Positions 3,500-59,952 of a DNA stretch of 64,000 nt are shown here, piece by piece (within the stretch, counting starts at the first letter, position 1; the number at the start of each line of letters is the position of its first letter). Source of the stretch: Methanocalculus taiwanensis (GTDB lineage Archaea > Halobacteriota > Methanomicrobia > Methanomicrobiales > Methanocorpusculaceae); contig NZ_VOTZ01000007.1 in NCBI RefSeq assembly GCF_024372745.1, positions 1 through 64,000 of the forward strand, written 5' to 3'. The notes beneath the pieces were generated by a model. The model was not told the origin of the DNA and searched no databases. It saw only the letters and a program-made list of their open reading frames with translations. Both the position numbers and the translations under genes were made by a program.

Positions 3500-4109
3500 A
3501 GCCGATCATGCCAAGGAGCCTGCGTGCCCAGAAGAGTTTCCCTTTCTTCATCGGATCGACTGAGGTATCTGAGAGATCAAACCCGATGAATATGAGGCGA
3601 GCTGCCCCCAGCGCATCTGCGGCAAAGGCGGCACGGTCGCCATCGGTGAACCCGCCGAAGTTATGGATATGCGGGAGCGGGGCTGCCTGCGTTGTTCCGA
3701 TCAGGTGGCCCGGAAACCGTGGCACCCATCTCCGGAGGAGCGGCATATTATCGCCATGGGCATGGATGGCAATGAGTGTCCCTCTCTCATTCATTGTGAT
3801 GAAGGGATCGTCTGCCCCATCCAGATCTGTGAAGATGGCATCAGGGAGAATGCCTGCATTGTGAAGCACAAGTGCAGCGGCATCTGCTGCGATAACAACT
3901 CCTTCTATCCTGTCGAGTTCAGATGCAAGGCAGGGGGCATTGCCGCAGATTGTTGTAGTCTTCCCTGAGATGAGCGTTTGAAGTGTGTCAATATCATCAC
4001 GTGGGAGGAGCTCTGCGAGCACGGCTCGCGCGTCTTCATCAACGGCGCGATCAAAACCGAAATAATCCAGGATCTCCGTATAATATGGTTCCCAGTCTTC
4101 AAACCTCAT
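3489..4109 (-). CDS. mptE: 6-hydroxymethyl-7,8-dihydropterin pyrophosphokinase, archaeal MptE type
   Basis: A DUF115-family protein of 206 residues. Family members transfer pyrophosphate from ATP to 6-hydroxymethyl-dihydropterin in methanopterin/folate synthesis. The conserved IFTDLDGADDP acidic segment and the IHAHGDN and HNFGGFTDGDRA motifs are visible. The start chosen is the ATG at 4109: a GGAGAT site lies 4 bases upstream and the protein then begins MRFEDWEPYY. Starting earlier at 4139 would add ten residues inside the preceding gene. It overlaps the DHH gene upstream by 11 bases and the radical SAM gene downstream by 11, so the three form one operon. Confidence 0.85.
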   Translation of the reverse strand: MRFEDWEPYYTEILDYFGFDRAVDEDARAVLAELLPRDDIDTLQTLISGKTTTICGNAPCLASELDRIEGVVIAADAAALVLHNAGILPDAIFTDLDGADDPFITMNERGTLIAIHAHGDNMPLLRRWVPRFPGHLIGTTQAAPLPHIHNFGGFTDGDRAAFAADALGAARLIFIGFDLSDTSVDPMKKGKLFWARRLLGMIGYDL

Positions 4110-5592
4110 TTTTATCTCCATTATCATCGATGCCGACAATCTTGGTAAAGAGATTTAAAATGGGATCAATGATCATGTCAAGGAGTTCTTCCTTGTCACG
4201 GATGAGGGAGAAATAGTTCAGGGGGATGGTTGCGGCAGCCATGGTTCCGTGTCCCCCGGCATCCCCGAACGAGCCGAATGCCTCTTTGAGGACATTGCCG
4301 ATATGCACCCTGATATCCTTGTTCCGTGCGGAGATGATGATATGCTGGTCGGTGATCCCATAGACGAGTGCGGTTGTTACGCCTTCGAGGTTCACCAGCA
4401 TATCAGCTGCCTGCGGGATTGCGTCCCTGTTCCGGAGGTAGCCGACATTTGCAAAGAGAAAACCGTTCTTTATTTTTCGGCTTGTTATGGCGTTCCCCAT
4501 CACATCAATTGTTTCCTGTGAATATGACGGGGACATGATCTTCTCGAGGAGATCTGCATCTGAGAGGGGGAGGAGGTATGCGGCATTATAAAGATCATTG
4601 GAGGTTACTCCACGCCGGAACTCCCGGGTGTCTGCCCGTATGCCATAGTAGAGTGCGGTTGCGATCTTAGTATCCACATTAATATCGAGTTCCTGGAGGT
4701 ATTGGGCGAATATGCTGGCAGTTGCACCACTCTCAGGGCGGATATCCATGAATTTCGGCTTTTTCTTCAGCTCAACACCGTCTGAGCTGTGGTGATCGAT
4801 GATGATGTCAACAGTAAGGCCCGGATCCAGATCATTATTGACGCCGGGTGCTGCGCAATCAACAAGGGCGAGATGGGTGCATTCCTTCAGCTTCTCAGGG
4901 GTGATCTTCTCCATCTGGATCTCAAGAAGGTTGACGAAGGCGCGGTTCTCCTGGTGTCCGACATTTCCGTCAAAAAGGATGACACATTTCAGTTCGCCTT
5001 TGGTGGCGCCCTGAGCTATGGCACAGAGTGCCATAGCACTGGAGATTGCATCCGGATCGGGGTTTCGGTGTGTGATGATGCCGAGCGTTCCGGTCATCCC
5101 TTCAAGCAGAGAATATAGCTGTTGTGCGCTCCGTGCGGCAATAAGTCGCTTCATGTGGTTGACAGCTGATCTCGCCACCACCTGCTGGGGATACAGCACG
5201 ACATCCGCCCCTGCCTCGACGAGTTTGTCTACAGAGAAGAGATCAACCGCACGCGCAATACAGAATGCCTGCGGATGGCACTTCTTCGCCAGTGCAACTG
5301 CGCTCAGATTTGCCTCTTTATTGCTGGAGAGGATGAAGATAATCTCGGGGGTGGGAAGGTCTTTGAAGAGATCGGGGTCGGCTATGTCATGGGCTATCGC
5401 CTGATATTTATGGTCTTTTAAGTCCTCAACCCTTTTTTCGTCAGAGTCGACAACTACGATATTATCGGTTTCTTTGAGGAGTTCCTCTATGACATTGTAG
5501 CCGATGCTTCCGCACCCAAAGACCATGTATCTGACAATTGGTTTTGGGTCACCCTTCCCACCATCAGCCATACCGTACTCTGGAACCTCCAA
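4099..5592 (-). CDS. TrkA-N/DHH-DHHA1 fusion phosphoesterase
   Basis: An N-terminal Rossmann domain (RYMVFGCGSIGYNV, about residues 22-140) resembles the nucleotide-binding TrkA-N/RCK module. A DHH phosphoesterase domain follows, with the HRNPDPDAISS metal motif (about 176), the VDCAAPG motif and the IDHHSS signature, and then a C-terminal DHHA1 domain with the GGHGTMAAA glycine-rich loop. DHH-DHHA1 proteins cleave cyclic dinucleotides, nanoRNA or pyrophosphate; the RCK fusion is known in archaea, and its substrate is not settled to my knowledge. The first possible start is TTG at 5592; ATG at 5571, 13 bases after a GGAGGT, is as likely. A TATTTATG box lies near 5636-5645. Confidence 0.8.
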   Translation of the reverse strand: MEVPEYGMADGGKGDPKPIVRYMVFGCGSIGYNVIEELLKETDNIVVVDSDEKRVEDLKDHKYQAIAHDIADPDLFKDLPTPEIIFILSSNKEANLSAVALAKKCHPQAFCIARAVDLFSVDKLVEAGADVVLYPQQVVARSAVNHMKRLIAARSAQQLYSLLEGMTGTLGIITHRNPDPDAISSAMALCAIAQGATKGELKCVILFDGNVGHQENRAFVNLLEIQMEKITPEKLKECTHLALVDCAAPGVNNDLDPGLTVDIIIDHHSSDGVELKKKPKFMDIRPESGATASIFAQYLQELDINVDTKIATALYYGIRADTREFRRGVTSNDLYNAAYLLPLSDADLLEKIMSPSYSQETIDVMGNAITSRKIKNGFLFANVGYLRNRDAIPQAADMLVNLEGVTTALVYGITDQHIIISARNKDIRVHIGNVLKEAFGSFGDAGGHGTMAAATIPLNYFSLIRDKEELLDMIIDPILNLFTKIVGIDDNGDKNEV

Positions 5593-5679: not shown

Positions 5680-5753
5680 GGGCCTGTGGCTTAGTCAGGC
5701 ATAGCGACGGACTCTTAATCCGTCGGTCAGGGGTTCAAATCCCTTCAGGCCCG
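5680..5753 (+). tRNA. tRNA-Lys (anticodon CUU)
   Basis: A complete 74-base cloverleaf can be folded. The acceptor stem pairs 5680-5686 (GGGCCTG) with 5746-5752 (CAGGCCC), with discriminator G at 5753. The anticodon stem ACGGA/TCCGT encloses the loop CTCTTAA, giving anticodon CTT. The T arm AGGGG/CCCTT encloses TTCAAAT. No intron is seen and CCA is not encoded. It would read AAG lysine codons. Confidence 0.95.
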
Positions 5754-5973
5754 CTTTCTTTTCGTGTTTTAAGGTCGTATTGGTCGTTATTTGGATTGTT
5801 TTGTGTTCGGTATTCGTTTTAAGCGCATATATCGCACTATCGAAGAATCGAGAAGCGTTAAAGTCTGCTTTCTTGATAAATTCATCATGATCCGGGTCAA
5901 TAGTGAGAGATAATCGTTTCCTGATTCTCACCTTTAAAGGGTAGATATCATATTTAGCCTTTGATTTCATTCT
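5695..5973 (-). CDS. Small ribbon-helix-helix-like ORF whose 3' end runs into tRNA-Lys
   Basis: A reading frame of about 92 residues from the ATG at 5973 (or 102 from 6003). Residues 15-50 (VRIRKRLSLTIDPDHDEF, then SRFFDSAIYAL) look like a ribbon-helix-helix DNA-binding fold. The last 20 residues (GFEPLTDGLRVRRYA) are the antisense reading of the tRNA, a well-known artefact tail, so either the ORF is not real or it ends inside the tRNA by chance. RHH genes next to tRNA 3' ends are common in integrated elements, but no integrase is nearby. Existence is uncertain. Confidence 0.35.
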   Translation of the reverse strand, partial: RMKSKAKYDIYPLKVRIRKRLSLTIDPDHDEFIKKADFNASRFFDSAIYALKTNTEHKTIQITTNTTLKHEKKAGLKGFEPLTDGLRVRRYA

Positions 5974-6040
5974 CTTTTCCCCTGTGCGAACATGTGCGTA
6001 CACTCACGTCGTACACAATGGCAGTTATGGAGATTTGTTT

Positions 6041-6156: not shown

Positions 6157-7038
6157 TCAAACCGCCATCAGCATCTCTTCAAGAGTCGGGTACCGTGATT
6201 CTATCCGCTCAACATTCCCGCCTGCGGCATCAATCTGTGACGTGATCCGATTGAGCTGATCGATATCCTTTGCAGTTGATACAAATCCTCCGTCATCCTG
6301 CGAGAAGAGGAGGTGCTCCCCAAGCGATTCAGGTTCCCGTATCCTGAAATGTATATAATAGGTGAGGGAGCCGAACTGCTCTCTTAGCTCGTCCATTGTC
6401 CCGAATGCAACTTTCTCACCTTCGGAGAGTATCATCACGATATCTGATATCTCCTCCACCTGGAAGAGGTTGTGTGCAGAGATGATGATCATCTTCCCTT
6501 CATCACGAAGCTTCCTGAAGTACCCGGTGATAAACCGTGAGCTCATCGGATCGAGGCCTGATGTTGCCTCGTCATAGACGAGTATCGTCGGGTCATGGAG
6601 GAGTGAGCGTGCGATAGCAACCTTCCGCCGCATCCCTTTTGAGAGCTCCCCGAGCTTTTTGCCTTCATCGTCAAGGTTCAGTGAGGAGAGGAGCTCCTCA
6701 GATCGCAGTTTAATCTCCCTCCGGGGCATGCCATAGATCTCCCCGAAGAATGACAGGTACGAGGATATCGTCATCGTATCATACAGGCGTGACTCTTCAG
6801 GCAGGTACCCGAGCCGTTCCTTCAGCGCATTTGGATCTGCAATGACATTGATCCCATCGATCTCCAGGGTGCCTGATGTGGGGGTGAGCAGCCCTGCACA
6901 TATCTTCAGGAGTGTCGTCTTACCTGCCCCGTTATGCCCGATTATCCCGAAGATCCCGTTCTTATCAATATCAAAGTCAACTCCTTTCAGGGCGACAAAC
7001 GAGTCAAACTCCTTTTGAATATTGCGGGCATGGATCAT
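6157..7038 (-). CDS. ABC transporter ATP-binding protein (ABC-2 exporter)
   Basis: A 293-residue ATPase with Walker A GHNGAGKT (about 35), signature LSKGMRRK (about 135), Walker B ILVYDEAT and the switch histidine in IIISAHNLFQ. The C-terminal ~75 residues form an extra domain of the kind found in Nat/ABC-2 export ATPases. The start is ATG 7038, where the family N-terminus MIHARNIQKEF begins; GGAGGATGAT lies about 10 bases upstream and an AATATAT box just above it. The gene is divergent from two ABC-2 permeases starting at 7200 and 9008, which are its likely partners. Substrate unknown. Confidence 0.88.
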   Translation of the reverse strand: MIHARNIQKEFDSFVALKGVDFDIDKNGIFGIIGHNGAGKTTLLKICAGLLTPTSGTLEIDGINVIADPNALKERLGYLPEESRLYDTMTISSYLSFFGEIYGMPRREIKLRSEELLSSLNLDDEGKKLGELSKGMRRKVAIARSLLHDPTILVYDEATSGLDPMSSRFITGYFRKLRDEGKMIIISAHNLFQVEEISDIVMILSEGEKVAFGTMDELREQFGSLTYYIHFRIREPESLGEHLLFSQDDGGFVSTAKDIDQLNRITSQIDAAGGNVERIESRYPTLEEMLMAV

Positions 7039-7199
7039 GTTGAAACGATCATCCTCCGGATATATTAAGAGTGCCGGAAGAATACCCTGGCTGCTGGCAG
7101 TGCAGATCCACTGTATCGGGAGAATGGATCGCAATTCCAGGTTCTGCCAATATCCTGATGCCGACTCTTTTATAGAAGAAATGTCCTATGTAGGCGTGC

Positions 7200-9011
7200 A
7201 TGAGGATAGGGTATCTCCATCAGATCGCTGTTGTGGCACGGTGGGAGCTTTTGCGTACCCTCTCCACGATGGGCAGGGGTATCCTGCCCGCCGCAATTAT
7301 CCTCTTTGTTCTCCTTATTGCTGCGTCGGGCCTTGCAGCCGAGCGTGGCATCCATATCCAGGATGGGATATACCGGCTTGGTACAGACAACGTACCTGCC
7401 GGGGAGGTGATCGCAGAGGATCCCAGGTTCATGGTCTTTATCGATTCCGGGGCATCTCTTTTGAATAACCGGCTCTTTTATGATATCATCATCCTTGGGA
7501 GCGAGGTCTATGTCCAGGATACTGAGAAGGGGCGTGCCGCGCTCACCTCGCTTGAACGGGTATTTGAGAGCTACTCTGCTTTCATGAACGTTCAGGAGCC
7601 CGATCTCTATGCAGCATATCCGCTCTGGATCGATCGCATCTATGAGAGGAGCGAGTTAGACTTTTCTGCAACACAGAGCGGACAGCGTATCTCCCCGCTC
7701 CCGCAGACGGATGCGCCGCAGCCGTCAGGCCCAATCCTTCCTATTGCTACACCACAAGCATCTGTTCCCTATGAGCCTGATCAGCTGAGATCCGGAATTT
7801 CACGGGCTGCTGCACAGGATGACACCGTGAGCAGGTACACTCAGCTTATCGCTTCTGATTCTGAGCTTGGCTCATTCAGGACACCAAATCAGCTTGCCCC
7901 GCCCCTCCCCTTCGACTCGATCATCCTGATCTTCGTCTTCATATTCCCACTTTACTTCACGTCCCAGTTTTTCATGATGAGTATCATGAACGAGCGGATC
8001 GAACGGAAAGGCGAGGTCCTTCTCTCAGCCCCATACCGTCCCTCAGCCATCATCCTCGGAAAGGCGCTCCCCTATTTCGTGATGATGCTGGCAATATCCA
8101 TCCTTCTCATCATGATCAGCTCCCTCCCCCCAAAAACCATCCTTCCGCTCATCCCGGTGATCCTCTTCTTCCTCTCTGCGGCTCTCGTCATTGGCATGCT
8201 CGCTCGTAGCTTCAAGGAACTCTCCTTCCTCTCGATCTTCTTCTCAACCATCGCCACGTCATACCTCTTCTTCCCAAGCATCTTTGCCAATGTTCACATA
8301 GTCTCGCTTATATCTCCACTCACCCTGATCGTTCTTGAGATCCAGGGCGATCCATTTACCCTGACAGACTACTTCTATTCAACGAGCCTCTTCTACCTGA
8401 CTAGCGGCATCCTCCTCTATGCTGGTGCCGTGAACTTCAATGAGGAGCGGCTCTTCTCCCTTCACCGCCTGATCCCCCGGACAATCGAGTTCATATCAGC
8501 GGGGATATCGAAGACATACCCGCTCATCTCACTCTTTCTGCTTGGGGGTCTTGTTATCCCGTTTGTCTTCATGGTGCAGCTGATGGGCCTCGTCCTCTTC
8601 TTCAACCTCCCGATGCCGCTCTCCCTCCTCCTCCTGATCGGATATGCCGCTGTCACAGAGGAGGTGGCAAAGTCAGTCGGAATCTATGCACTGGCAAAAA
8701 TCCTCCCTGGCGGCCTCACCTGGCGTCATGCAATCTTCGGATCCGCCGCCACAGCAGTTGGTTTTCTTGCAGGAGAGAAGCTTCTCCTCTTTGCAACAAT
8801 TGCACAGGTCTCGGAGTCTGTGTTTGGAAGTATCATGTTCCTCTCTCTCCAGGTGCTCTGGATGCCGTTCTTACTCCATGCAGGGTGTCTCGCAGTCGTC
8901 GCTGTCGCTCTTAAGGGTGGAGGATTCCGATGGTATCTGCCGGGCATTGCTCTTGCCACCATCATCCATGTGGTCTATAATCTTACTGTCATCGGGGTGA
9001 TCACTGTATGA
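7200..9011 (+). CDS. ABC-2 permease fused to a PrsW-like intramembrane protease domain
   Basis: Residues 1-440 have the ABC-2 permease layout: one N-terminal membrane helix (about 22-45), a large external loop (to about 235) and a cluster of five or six helices. The C-terminal ~150 residues carry the motifs of PrsW-type glutamic intramembrane proteases: EE-x2-K (TEEVAKS), a second conserved E in FLAGEKLLLF, a histidine in LLHAGC and H-x3-N (HVVYN). All catalytic positions I recall for PrsW are present. The stop overlaps the ATG of the next permease (ATGA at 9008). The protein probably pairs with that permease and the divergent ATPase. What the protease part cuts is unknown; cleavage of exported peptides or of the transporter partner are guesses. 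Confidence 0.8.
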   Translation: MRIGYLHQIAVVARWELLRTLSTMGRGILPAAIILFVLLIAASGLAAERGIHIQDGIYRLGTDNVPAGEVIAEDPRFMVFIDSGASLLNNRLFYDIIILGSEVYVQDTEKGRAALTSLERVFESYSAFMNVQEPDLYAAYPLWIDRIYERSELDFSATQSGQRISPLPQTDAPQPSGPILPIATPQASVPYEPDQLRSGISRAAAQDDTVSRYTQLIASDSELGSFRTPNQLAPPLPFDSIILIFVFIFPLYFTSQFFMMSIMNERIERKGEVLLSAPYRPSAIILGKALPYFVMMLAISILLIMISSLPPKTILPLIPVILFFLSAALVIGMLARSFKELSFLSIFFSTIATSYLFFPSIFANVHIVSLISPLTLIVLEIQGDPFTLTDYFYSTSLFYLTSGILLYAGAVNFNEERLFSLHRLIPRTIEFISAGISKTYPLISLFLLGGLVIPFVFMVQLMGLVLFFNLPMPLSLLLLIGYAAVTEEVAKSVGIYALAKILPGGLTWRHAIFGSAATAVGFLAGEKLLLFATIAQVSESVFGSIMFLSLQVLWMPFLLHAGCLAVVAVALKGGGFRWYLPGIALATIIHVVYNLTVIGVITV

Positions 9012-10081
9012 AGAGCAACAATGTCCTGATCGTCACAAAAAAAGAACTCTTTGGGATCTATGCAGAGAAGACGATCGTCTTTGCGATCCTCCTTCAGCTC
9101 TTCATTGCACTCTTCTCATCATTTTTGATGGTCGGGCTGACAACGATGTACGATCCAAATGCACTCTCCGGGTACCAGGGTGTTGAGTATGGAATCGGAT
9201 ATGTAGGGTCTGATGGCGATCTTTATTCGATCATCGATGGTCGGCGTGATCTCAGGGCATACGGGATGGATCTGAACACTGCAATTGCCTCTTTGAAAGA
9301 ACGGCAGCTCTCGGCCGTGGTCTTTGTCCCGGATACTCCCCCTGACGCAGAAGGTCCCATTCTGGTAACCCTCTACATGCTCCAGAATGATATACAGTCG
9401 GCGATTGTTGAGGTGAAGATGAAAGAGGCGTTTCTTGCCTACGAGGAGGAACTCAGGACCCTACGTTCAGATAGGCTGACACTGAACCCCATACGGCTGA
9501 ACTTCCCGGATTCCGGAGGGAGATCAAACTATTTCGAGTTCGTATTCGCTCTCTTAATTCCGCTCCTCGTCTTCATGCCCGCGATCATCTCGGCAGCGCT
9601 GATCATCGATCTCATCACCGAAGAATATCAGTCTGAAACACTTGAGACCCTTCTTTCGACGACTGTCACCTATGGGGAGATGCTCTGGGGGAAGATACTC
9701 GCCTGTATAGCGATCGTGCCTATCCAGTCAGGGGCATGGCTTGCACTTCTGGCGGCAAATGGTATTGTTGTGCAGCACCCGCTTGAGATTCTGCTTCATG
9801 TCATCTGCGGATCGCTTATCCTGATCATAATCGGGGCATTCTGTGCGCTCCATTATCGTGAGAGGACGAGCGCACAGTTCATCTTCTCAACCGCGGTTGT
9901 GGTGATGATCATCATTGCGATGTCGGTTCCCTACAATCCCTTAAATCTCATAGTCAGGCTGGCAGTCGGAACAATCGGATCTCTTCACTGGATTGTCCTC
10001 TCAGGCGTCCTTGCCCTTGCTCTCTTCCTCTCCATTCTGCTGACCCGCTATGCAGGCAGGATCAGCCGCCTGCCACGGTGA
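9008..10081 (+). CDS. ABC-2 type permease (NatB-like)
   Basis: A 357-residue membrane protein with an N-terminal helix (about 20-42), an extracytoplasmic domain (about 45-170) and five to six helices in the second half, including the conserved ITEEYQSETLETLLSTTVTYGEMLWGK-type region (about 198-225) of Na+/export ABC-2 permeases, here described by its SETLETLLST core. It overlaps the PrsW-fused permease by 4 bases, so the two are translated together and probably form a heterodimer driven by the ATPase encoded divergently. Confidence 0.85.
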   Translation: MKSNNVLIVTKKELFGIYAEKTIVFAILLQLFIALFSSFLMVGLTTMYDPNALSGYQGVEYGIGYVGSDGDLYSIIDGRRDLRAYGMDLNTAIASLKERQLSAVVFVPDTPPDAEGPILVTLYMLQNDIQSAIVEVKMKEAFLAYEEELRTLRSDRLTLNPIRLNFPDSGGRSNYFEFVFALLIPLLVFMPAIISAALIIDLITEEYQSETLETLLSTTVTYGEMLWGKILACIAIVPIQSGAWLALLAANGIVVQHPLEILLHVICGSLILIIIGAFCALHYRERTSAQFIFSTAVVVMIIIAMSVPYNPLNLIVRLAVGTIGSLHWIVLSGVLALALFLSILLTRYAGRISRLPR

Positions 10082-10156: not shown

Positions 10157-10369
10157 ATGTACCTTTCATATAATCCTGATCTCATCGTGTATATACTTCT
10201 AACAGCGGCAATAGTTATTCTGCTCTTCTTTTTGTTCATCTCCCTGCGCATGATTTTATCACTGTCCAGGGTAAGGGATATGAGGCGAAAAAAAGAGATG
10301 GAGGCGTTTGTTACTCCTCTCTCCGAAACCCCGAAAAATCGGTTCCTTCAGGATATGGGAAAAAAATAG
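10157..10369 (+). CDS. Small single-pass membrane protein
   Basis: A 70-residue protein with one hydrophobic segment (about residues 9-32) followed by a basic, charged tail, suggesting a cytoplasmic C-terminus. A TATATC box about 30 bases upstream and an AGGT before the ATG support expression. It lies 75 bases after the permease genes in the same direction. I do not recognise the family. Confidence 0.6.
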   Translation: MYLSYNPDLIVYILLTAAIVILLFFLFISLRMILSLSRVRDMRRKKEMEAFVTPLSETPKNRFLQDMGKK

Positions 10370-56638: not shown

Positions 56639-58222
56639 CTACAGGCGGGATCCGATTACCATAACGATGATTCCCAAGGAGGCGAGGAGCAGGCCGTACC
56701 CCGGCATGAAATGGTTCCCGAGGATCCCGCCTGCAAAGCCAAGCAGGATCCCGGAGAGGACGATGAGCGTTCCGGCACCTGTTCTCCCCTCGTTTGCCCG
56801 GGTGCCTTCAGGCCCGACAATATCTGACCAGTACAGACCCCATGCCTTGATCCGGGGGTATAATACCAGGTATAATGGCAGGCTTAGCAGGAAGATGGGT
56901 AAGAGATTATTGACGAGAAGAACTGGCCCGAGGAGAGAGAAGGGCAGCAGGCCGAGGAGCTGAAAACCCCATGCAATGATAAGTGCACAGGCAATTGATC
57001 CAAGAACGGCGAGGAGAAAGAAATTCAGCGTTTTCCTCATCGAATTGATCTGGCAGGGAGCCGGATCATCTCCTCGCAGAAGCCATGTCCTCTTCCAGAG
57101 ATGGTACATGATCCATGCCATTGCAAGATTCCCAAAGAATCCAAAGAACGTTCCGGGCCCAAATGTCCCGAAGAGATCACTGATCACCACTCCAAGGCCG
57201 ACTCCCCATGCTCCAGCCGGCCCAAACAACAAGCCCAGTACGGGTACAAGGGCATTGGCCGGCCGCAGATCCACCACTCCCGGTATCAGGACCACACCCT
57301 TGAATGGAATGACCACTGCGGCATAGAGTGCAGCAGAGAACGCAGTCAGAACCACCATCCGGGTATTTCCCCAGAGGTACCTGCTGTTTCTTCCAAGTAC
57401 TGACAATCGTGCCATCCCGATGAAGATCAGAAAGAGGATAGTAAGTGTCAGGAATACCCGGATATCGGTTGAGAAGGGTGCAGTATTGATGAGCAAAGCC
57501 CCGATGACGACAAGGATCGAAGCGATCAAAAATACGATATCCCCTGCCATGATCCTGGTTGTAAGGAATGAACTCCGGCTACTCTCCGGGTCATATCCCC
57601 TTGATTCGAGGGCCATGGCAAAATGGTGCGTATTCCGTATCATCGAGACGATGGCAGGAATTATGATCATGATCTGTTTTTTGATCCGCTCCCGAATTGA
57701 ACCGCTTCTGAGATCGAGGCCCCGCGACTGCTGTGCCTGTGAGATGGTATGGGCATTATGAAGGACTAGGGGGAGCATCCGGACAGCTGTTGAGAATGAA
57801 AAGGCAATCGGCCGTGGAATGCCAAGCTTCTCCATCCCGATCACCATCTCCTCTGTCCGTGTCGTGCTTATCCAGATAATCCCGGAAAGGATCATGATCA
57901 GAAGCTTGATTCCTGTCAGAAATCCAAAGAGGAGTCCGGTGGAACTGATCATCCCATAAATGAGATCCTCCCGTGTGGCAATCCCCCACATGAGAGAGGA
58001 CATGATGATTATGATCACGAGTACGGGAGCAAAACGGATCAGGTTTCTTCCGATTCCCGCACTCATTCCAACCAGCAGAAGAATCCCCACAAGAAAGAGG
58101 AGGGGAAGCAGTTCATCCTCGACAAGCGCGATGAAGACCATGCCGAAGACGCTGAAGATCTTCACCCTCGGATCGATCCGATGCATCCATGTATGCCTCT
58201 CAAGATAGAGGGAGATGTTCAT
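56639..58222 (-). CDS. ECF transporter T-component fused to S-component-like domain
   Basis: Residues 1-265 are an EcfT/CbiQ transmembrane protein: the coupling motifs (ISQAQQSRGLDLR and MALESRGYDPE, the A-x2-S-R-G pair) are present. Residues ~290-480 form a second membrane unit with LRPANALVPVLGLLFGPAGAWGVG and DLFGTFGPGTFFGFFGNL, like ECF S-components. The end has two more helices. Substrate unknown. It overlaps the ATPase gene by 4 bases. Confidence 0.82.
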   Translation of the reverse strand: MNISLYLERHTWMHRIDPRVKIFSVFGMVFIALVEDELLPLLFLVGILLLVGMSAGIGRNLIRFAPVLVIIIIMSSLMWGIATREDLIYGMISSTGLLFGFLTGIKLLIMILSGIIWISTTRTEEMVIGMEKLGIPRPIAFSFSTAVRMLPLVLHNAHTISQAQQSRGLDLRSGSIRERIKKQIMIIIPAIVSMIRNTHHFAMALESRGYDPESSRSSFLTTRIMAGDIVFLIASILVVIGALLINTAPFSTDIRVFLTLTILFLIFIGMARLSVLGRNSRYLWGNTRMVVLTAFSAALYAAVVIPFKGVVLIPGVVDLRPANALVPVLGLLFGPAGAWGVGLGVVISDLFGTFGPGTFFGFFGNLAMAWIMYHLWKRTWLLRGDDPAPCQINSMRKTLNFFLLAVLGSIACALIIAWGFQLLGLLPFSLLGPVLLVNNLLPIFLLSLPLYLVLYPRIKAWGLYWSDIVGPEGTRANEGRTGAGTLIVLSGILLGFAGGILGNHFMPGYGLLLASLGIIVMVIGSRL

Positions 58223-59952
58223 GCCCCATCCCTCCGCCGCGTGCAGGCAGCCATCTCATCAACCGTGCAGATCGGATACCCTATTTTTGTTGAGAATTCG
58301 GTTATCTGTGGGGCTTTCATGGAGTTTTCCGCGAGCAGTGGTGGGTTCGATAAGATCGTCCGTGGCGTCCCGTCGGCGATGATCTCCCCGTCCCTGAGAA
58401 GAACAACCCGGTGCATATACTCTGCCAGAACCCACATCGCATGCGTGATGATGATGATCGTGTGCCCCTTTTGGTTCAGATCAGCAACAAGCTCCATCAT
58501 CCTGACCTGATCCTGGTAGTCGAGCCCGGTTGTCGGCTCGTCAAGGATGATTATATCCGGCTGTATCGCCAGGACTGAGGCAACCGCAACCCGCTGCCTG
58601 TCTCCCCTGGGAAGCGAGAAGGGATCGTAATCCTCCTTTCCCTCCATGCCCACGGCAAGAAGGGCTTCTGCAACTCTCAGGGAGACCTGATCCGGTGAAA
58701 ACCCGTGGAGCCTGACCCCGTATGCGACCTCCTCAAAGACTGTATCCGAGAAGATCTGGTGATCAGGATTCTGGAAGACATACCCGATCACCCTGCTGAG
58801 ATCGTGGATTGAATGGTGTTGGGTATCCATGCCTGCAACCGTCACCGAGCCTGAATCCGGGTGGATCAGCCCGGCGAGCAGCCTCGATACCGTGGTCTTT
58901 CCGGAGCCGTTTGCCCCTGCTATCGCAAGGCACTCCTGCCGCCGGATGGTGAGATTGAGGTTTCGGATCACCAGGTTATCCTCATATCCGAAGCTCACTC
59001 CCCGGATCGAGATGATCTCGGGGCCATAGCGTTGGGTGCGTATGCTATCGGCCTTGATGATCTCCTGATAGCGGCTTGTATCGATCTCAAGATCGCTTGC
59101 ATGAAAGAGTGATACTGCATCAGGGACCGAGAGGAGCTGTTTGCTGCTCTCGATCCCAAGTGCTGCAAAGTATTCGCAGACCGGGAGGGGCCGGAGCCCG
59201 AGCTGCTGAAAGAGCGATATATCCTTCATTACTGCCTTGGGTGGGCCGTCTGCGATGATTGTCCCTTTATCCATGAGAATGAGCCGATCGAGAGCGGCCA
59301 TCTCCTCGGTCTCCTGCTCAATGATGATCCCGTTCTGAATGGCCTCTTCACCAGGGGCATGATGCTGGCTCCTGCAGAGCGATCGAATGAGTGAAAATAC
59401 CTCCTCCTTTCCGGCAGGGTCGAGGTCGGTTGTCGGTTCGTCGAAACAGAGTATCTCCGGGTTCAGGGCAAGGACAGAACCGATCACCAGCCGCTGTTTC
59501 TGCCCTCCGGAGAGGGATCCCGGCGGCCGTTTTGAGAATCCTGAAAGGCCAATGATTGCTTCGATCTCCCGGACCCGCCTTCGCATGCTCTCCGGGTCAA
59601 CTCCCCGGTTCTCCATTGCAAAGGCGATCTCAAGCTCTACGGTGGATGAGAAGAGCTGTGATTCAAAGTCCTGGAATACGATCCCGATGGTATCTGCCAT
59701 GGTACGGGGAGAGGCCGTGATCGGGTTTTGTGCTCCGACGGTGATAGTCCCGGAATGCGTGCCGTGGATAAAATCGGGGATCAGGCCGCCCAGGGCAAAG
59801 ACGAGTGTTGACTTTCCTGCCCCGGCGGGACCCATGATCCCGACGACCTCTCCCTTTGGGATCTCAAGGTGTATACCTTTGAGCACCGGTCCGGTTGAAG
59901 AAGGGTATCTGAATGAGAAATCAAAAAGGGTGATGGGGGTGCTCCTGTCCAC
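58219..59952 (-). CDS. ECF transporter double ATPase (EcfA-EcfA' fusion)
   Basis: Two ABC domains in one chain: Walker A GPAGAGKST (about 38) with LSGGQKQR and CFDEPTTDLD, then Walker A GANGSGKTT (about 349), a less canonical signature FSLPRGDRQR (about 475) and ILDEPTTGLD. The second signature lacks the usual LSGG. With the T-S fusion downstream it makes a complete two-gene energy-coupling factor transporter. Confidence 0.88.
   Translation of the reverse strand: MDRSTPITLFDFSFRYPSSTGPVLKGIHLEIPKGEVVGIMGPAGAGKSTLVFALGGLIPDFIHGTHSGTITVGAQNPITASPRTMADTIGIVFQDFESQLFSSTVELEIAFAMENRGVDPESMRRRVREIEAIIGLSGFSKRPPGSLSGGQKQRLVIGSVLALNPEILCFDEPTTDLDPAGKEEVFSLIRSLCRSQHHAPGEEAIQNGIIIEQETEEMAALDRLILMDKGTIIADGPPKAVMKDISLFQQLGLRPLPVCEYFAALGIESSKQLLSVPDAVSLFHASDLEIDTSRYQEIIKADSIRTQRYGPEIISIRGVSFGYEDNLVIRNLNLTIRRQECLAIAGANGSGKTTVSRLLAGLIHPDSGSVTVAGMDTQHHSIHDLSRVIGYVFQNPDHQIFSDTVFEEVAYGVRLHGFSPDQVSLRVAEALLAVGMEGKEDYDPFSLPRGDRQRVAVASVLAIQPDIIILDEPTTGLDYQDQVRMMELVADLNQKGHTIIIITHAMWVLAEYMHRVVLLRDGEIIADGTPRTILSNPPLLAENSMKAPQITEFSTKIGYPICTVDEMAACTRRRDGA

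Follow-up and report, generated by a model that had tools for sequence, protein, structure and literature searches.

Processing and export of lipoprotein-leader peptides in Staphylococcus aureus depend on an intramembrane protease, Eep, as well as on an ABC transporter, EcsAB (PMC7157817). In Bacillus, the loss of Ecs inhibits RasP, and a membrane-cleaning function has been proposed for Ecs (PMC2996298). The principle proposed for these Firmicutes systems (Eep/RasP with EcsAB/PptAB) is intramembrane cleavage of leader peptides combined with ABC export of the products, the two activities residing in separate proteins and the protease being a site-2 metalloprotease. In general, little is understood of how peptide stubs are removed from membranes, particularly in archaea. 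A single chain of about 636 positions, in which an ABC-2-type permease half is followed by a glutamic intramembrane protease half of the CPBP family, has been named by NCBIfam (NF041647, ABC_perm_CPBP, 'ABC transporter permease subunit/CPBP intramembrane protease'), so that permeases with a glutamic intramembrane protease in the same chain are already known in principle. CPBP proteases are distant relatives of PrsW, and APH-1B is a recognised remote relative of both (PMC6588880). Permeases go unmentioned in a survey of PrsW domains fused to toxins and signalling domains (PMC3482391), as does PrsW in a survey of fusion proteins from archaea, and a review of archaeal membrane proteases gives one PrsW-like protein for Haloferax volcanii, the stand-alone HVO_0408 (PMC9263693).

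The locus analyzed here lies in a 64,000-nt stretch of the Methanocalculus taiwanensis genome (contig NZ_VOTZ01000007.1, positions 1 to 64,000; hereafter the window), where an intact open reading frame with an ATG start (7200..9011, + strand, 603 amino acids) combines an ABC-2 permease half (residues 1 to about 420, 7200..8459) with a PrsW-type glutamic intramembrane protease domain (residues about 435–603, 8502..9008). An earlier note made from the sequence alone had proposed exactly this fusion, and both the identity of the domain and the coordinates were borne out to an extent that we regard the assignment as practically certain. The fusion is real, widespread and under-annotated: its closest named homologues, with 78–85% identity, come mostly from Methanocalculus, and in a named haloarchaeal record the product is called nothing more than 'ABC transporter permease subunit'. 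Our findings correct the description of this gene, which is widespread in archaea and, where its annotation could be read, carries the label of a plain permease subunit. The arrangement differs from the Firmicutes systems in that protease and permease are fused and the protease is glutamic, belonging to an unrelated family, and from NF041647 in that the protease half is PrsW rather than CPBP. The NF041647 model (curated cut-off 435 bits) did not match the window fusion, and none of 60 genomes from the phylum contained a member above the cut-off. The claim of the earlier note that the arrangement is new stands for the version with PrsW and for its wide occurrence in Halobacteriota, both of which appear to be undescribed, but not for the principle, in view of the permease/CPBP fusion already named. 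Nowhere in the open-access papers searched is a PrsW/ABC-2 fusion described, which, given this limited coverage, is weak evidence of novelty.

Assignment of the C-terminal half to PrsW is carried by profile methods. The Pfam scan of the single window protein gave ABC2_membrane_3 only, without PF13367, which was likewise absent from the Pfam scans of 35 relatives; an NCBIfam scan of the window protein yielded no protease, nor did Pfam and NCBIfam scans of distant family members. An HMM built exclusively from 24 stand-alone PrsWs of the phylum and used in an unfiltered search of 2753 open reading frames nevertheless detected the window protein with an E value of 2.7e-6 and 150 of 155 fusion-family reading frames at E<1e-3. 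Only three non-fusion reading frames passed the same threshold, all of them PF13367 matches that had been left out of the model, and the next one followed at E 0.68. In profile-profile comparisons, the C-terminus of the fusion matched stand-alone PrsWs with a probability of 96.6% (E 5.6e-10) and the motifs in register, versus 0.2% for the N-terminal half as a control. Given this evidence, library scans of single sequences are too insensitive for the fused PrsW domain, and the missing PF13367 match in the window protein, which the earlier note had expected at residues 440–600, is judged to be a false negative. CPBP was considered as an alternative identity of the protease half and could be ruled out, since the profile-profile probability was 13% for CPBP compared with 96.6% for PrsW and the motifs are EExxK and FxxxE instead of EExxxR and FxxxH. 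In a six-frame search, several homologous fusions had a PF13367 match above cut-off at their C-terminus, but the match was missing when two of these proteins were submitted to hmmscan as a whole; we attribute this discrepancy to the HMMER filters and do not rest the identity on the six-frame matches. PF13367 also found no match in the whole genome to which the window belongs, which by that test has no recognisable stand-alone PrsW.

The putative active-site residues named in the earlier note are all present, and their conservation is not a matter of chance. The EExxK motif (E487, E488 and K491; 8658..8672), the FxxxE motif (F522 and E526; 8763..8777), H560 (8877..8879) and the HxxxN motif (H590 and N594, here HxxYN; 8967..8981), all on the + strand, were invariant in 67 of 67 near and 21 of 21 distant homologues, i.e., in 88/88, even though the distant homologues are only about 27–38% identical over the protease domain. 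When fusions and stand-alone PrsWs were aligned jointly, the columns conserved in both sets were exactly these eight residues, where it should be taken into account that the stand-alone reading frames had been chosen as PF13367 matches with the motif pattern, such that seven of the eight columns were pre-selected and the H560 column was not. The fusion domains thus have EExxK, FxxxE, H and HxxxN in common with stand-alone PrsWs, whose prototype is B. subtilis PrsW and which lack an ABC-2 half. They differ in the residue following FxxxE, which is mostly K in the fusion domains (K527 in the window protein) and N in the stand-alone enzymes, and they form a clade of their own on a long branch. Judged by this conservation, the active site is probably live and the domain catalytically active.

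A separate model of the protease domain was predicted with confidence (mean pLDDT 93.2, one model), with the motif residues on helices. Foldseek searches with this domain retrieved nothing significant (all E values of at least 1); among the top 11 of these non-significant matches were APH-1B of gamma-secretase (probability 0.38–0.47) and two chains of ER multipass-translocon/BOS complexes (0.57 and 0.28). The APH-1B match, albeit no proof, is consistent with the predicted domain adopting the CPBP/PrsW/APH-1 fold.

As to the permease half, the ABC2_membrane_3 match of the window protein (residues 225–374, E 7e-6) amounts to 25.7 bits and does not reach the Pfam cut-off of 31.6, but the same family was detected in 33 of 35 relatives of the fusion (best E 1.1e-13) and exceeded the cut-off with 60.8 bits in one homologous fusion (L158). 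The predicted structure shows a transmembrane helix at residues 28–48, a large loop domain at 49–237 and further transmembrane helices up to residue 411. The mean pLDDT of the whole-protein model was 75.9, with the loop domain being partly of low confidence. The nearest solved structure to this model in Foldseek was a mycobacterial ABC efflux pump (PDB 8k1o and 8k1n; probability 0.99, E 0.017), yet the match is weak (TM 0.25) and the entry title names no protease domain. A PDB sequence search with the fusion-family profile returned chance matches only.

The fusion gene belongs to a conserved module. Its end overlaps by four bases with the start of a gene for a second, plain ABC-2 permease (9008..10081, + strand; ABC2_membrane_3 E 2.5e-11), which resembles the N-terminal half of NF041647 (E 1.4e-9). 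On the other side, a DrrA-like ABC ATPase is encoded divergently (6157..7038, − strand, start taken at the ATG at 7038; ABC_tran E 2.2e-29), in which Walker A (GHNGAGKTT), the signature (LSKGM) and Walker B (ILVYDE) can be read directly. The 161 bp between the divergent genes (7039..7199) would, by position, be a probable shared promoter region; promoter and terminator scans gave chance numbers only. The next gene after the fusion was that of the second permease in every locus read that reaches far enough, and the ATPase was found upstream in nearly all loci, exceptions being two long loci (L056 and L157) without an ATPase match nearby. Among 135 near-complete Methanomicrobia genomes, the partner permease was detected in 116, the same figure as for the fusion, and every genome in which only one of the two was listed is less than 90% complete. 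As the same near-complete genomes carry both, the two permeases are retained or lost together. Beyond the module genes the neighbourhood varies, with some Methanomicrobiales retaining a TrkA-N/DHH protein and two further genes of the window and others not, and none of the loci read had a conserved peptide gene beside the module. Just downstream of the second permease, the window contains a reading frame of about 70 amino acids with one hydrophobic helix and no Pfam match (10157-10369, + strand), counterparts of which in this position are confined to congeneric loci (41–71% identity).

Counting the fusion in archaeal genomes, as had been suggested in the earlier note, revealed matches in 174 of 232 Methanomicrobia genomes, covering 36 of 40 genera. 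Nearly all complete Methanomicrobia genomes encode the fusion in full length and almost always in a single copy, and the same full-length reading frame was recovered from many independent assemblies. It is missing throughout the sister genus of the same family, which we take to be Methanocorpusculum. In the phylum Halobacteriota, the fusion-family profile matched 197 of 393 genomes sampled. The distant-family loci that were read, including those of haloarchaeal type, encode full-length fusions with the exception of L152 from an incomplete genome (G258), where the fusion is split over the overlapping reading frames 168-1256 and 859-1920, either as a real split or as a frameshift error. A plasmid collection contained one haloarchaeal fusion copy only. 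In a tree with stand-alone PrsWs, the fusion domains formed one long-branch clade with a support of 0.77, consistent with a single fusion event.

The conserved fusion and its unchanged active site hint at a machine by which membrane peptides are first cut and then cleared away. By analogy to the Firmicutes systems, which concerns the working principle of protease and permease and not membership, the simplest reading of the window protein would be a fusion of both activities. According to this reading, Halobacteriota would possess a three-gene ABC transporter composed of an ATPase, a plain ABC-2 permease and an ABC-2 permease with a C-terminal PrsW-type protease; the PrsW domain would cut small membrane-embedded peptides, such as remnants of signal peptides, inside the lipid bilayer, and the cleavage products would be taken out of the membrane by the two permeases, driven by ATP ('cut and clear'). 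To this whole mechanism of cleavage in the membrane coupled to ATP-driven product removal we assign a probability of roughly 40%. Somewhat more tentative is the idea that an active protease within the permease polypeptide feeds the cut peptides straight into the ATP-driven pathway, in what would be a widespread and ancient membrane-cleaning system of Halobacteriota. General membrane peptides appear to be the likelier substrates because the module is lineage-wide, single-copy and without a cognate peptide gene. Against the mechanism, on the other hand, counts the unrelated protease family of the Firmicutes precedent, and also that 196 of the 393 genomes sampled from the phylum gave no match, so that the function must be dispensable there or be accomplished otherwise. 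Co-occurrence with the archaeosortase ArtA (TIGR04125) was uninformative to negative: ArtA was found in every one of the 321 near-complete genomes sampled, regardless of whether they carry the fusion, and the tail stubs of archaeosortase substrates are thus not a required substrate. If the mechanism holds true, the natural protease-pump fusion would allow direct tests, on a single protein, of how intramembrane proteolysis is coupled to ABC transport, and the PrsW family would gain a role outside anti-sigma factor cleavage.

Other functions have to be weighed against the cut-and-clear mechanism. The transporter might monitor envelope stress or a toxic substrate, upon which the PrsW domain would make the site-1 cut in a membrane-bound regulator, just as RsiW is cut by PrsW in B. 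subtilis. Site-1 cleavage of an anti-sigma factor is indeed the only characterised PrsW role that we found described (PMC4602095, PMC3482391). No regulator is conserved beside the module, however. To our knowledge, archaea also lack a sigma/anti-sigma system of the RsiW type, and we consider a signalling function unlikely. Slightly less probable still is a protective exporter against foreign antimicrobial peptides or other toxic amphiphiles, in which the protease would degrade the cargo expelled by the pump. The mycobacterial efflux pump as best solved-structure neighbour (probability 0.99, E 0.017) would be in line with such a role, but its TM score of 0.25 makes for a weak match, and the single-copy, syntenic and lineage-wide occurrence in Methanomicrobiales would be unusual for a resistance gene.

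The earlier note had likened the protein to peptide exporters with built-in soluble peptidases, a role that is no more than a possibility here. In its strict form, the PrsW domain would remove the leader of one cognate peptide, comparable to the soluble C39 peptidase domains of bacteriocin exporters; besides this analogy in architecture, the small membrane-protein reading frame at 10157-10369 could be taken as a candidate peptide gene, yet its confinement to same-genus loci and the lack of a conserved peptide gene next to the module render such a dedicated exporter improbable. We consider it equally improbable that the PrsW-like half has only a structural, non-catalytic role, like APH-1 within gamma-secretase: APH-1B did appear among the first, non-significant Foldseek matches of the domain, but a purely structural part would hardly need eight motif residues that are invariant in 88/88 homologues. 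Finally, the absence of a protease from the Pfam and NCBIfam scans of the single sequence and of distant members could suggest that the C-terminal helices form an unrelated bundle or that the fusion was produced by an assembly artefact. The sensitive HMM and profile comparisons with their negative controls contradict the former, and the recurrence of the full-length fusion reading frame across many independent assemblies the latter, which leaves this explanation with hardly any credibility.

Some further features of the window deserve mention. The TrkA-N/DHH protein referred to above is encoded at 4099-5592 (− strand) as a TrkA-N domain fused to a DHH/DHHA1 phosphoesterase, and lies near the module in several Methanomicrobiales families. 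Between this gene and that of the ATPase, a tRNA-Lys (CTT) gene (5680-5754, + strand) is entered in antisense by a reading frame of 102 amino acids without Pfam match (5695-6003, − strand), which may be the end of an old insertion. Another transporter fusion is encoded at 56639-58222 (− strand), where the CbiQ-type T component of an ECF transporter and a QueT-type S component are combined in one protein, adjoined by a gene for two fused ABC ATPase domains (58219-59952).
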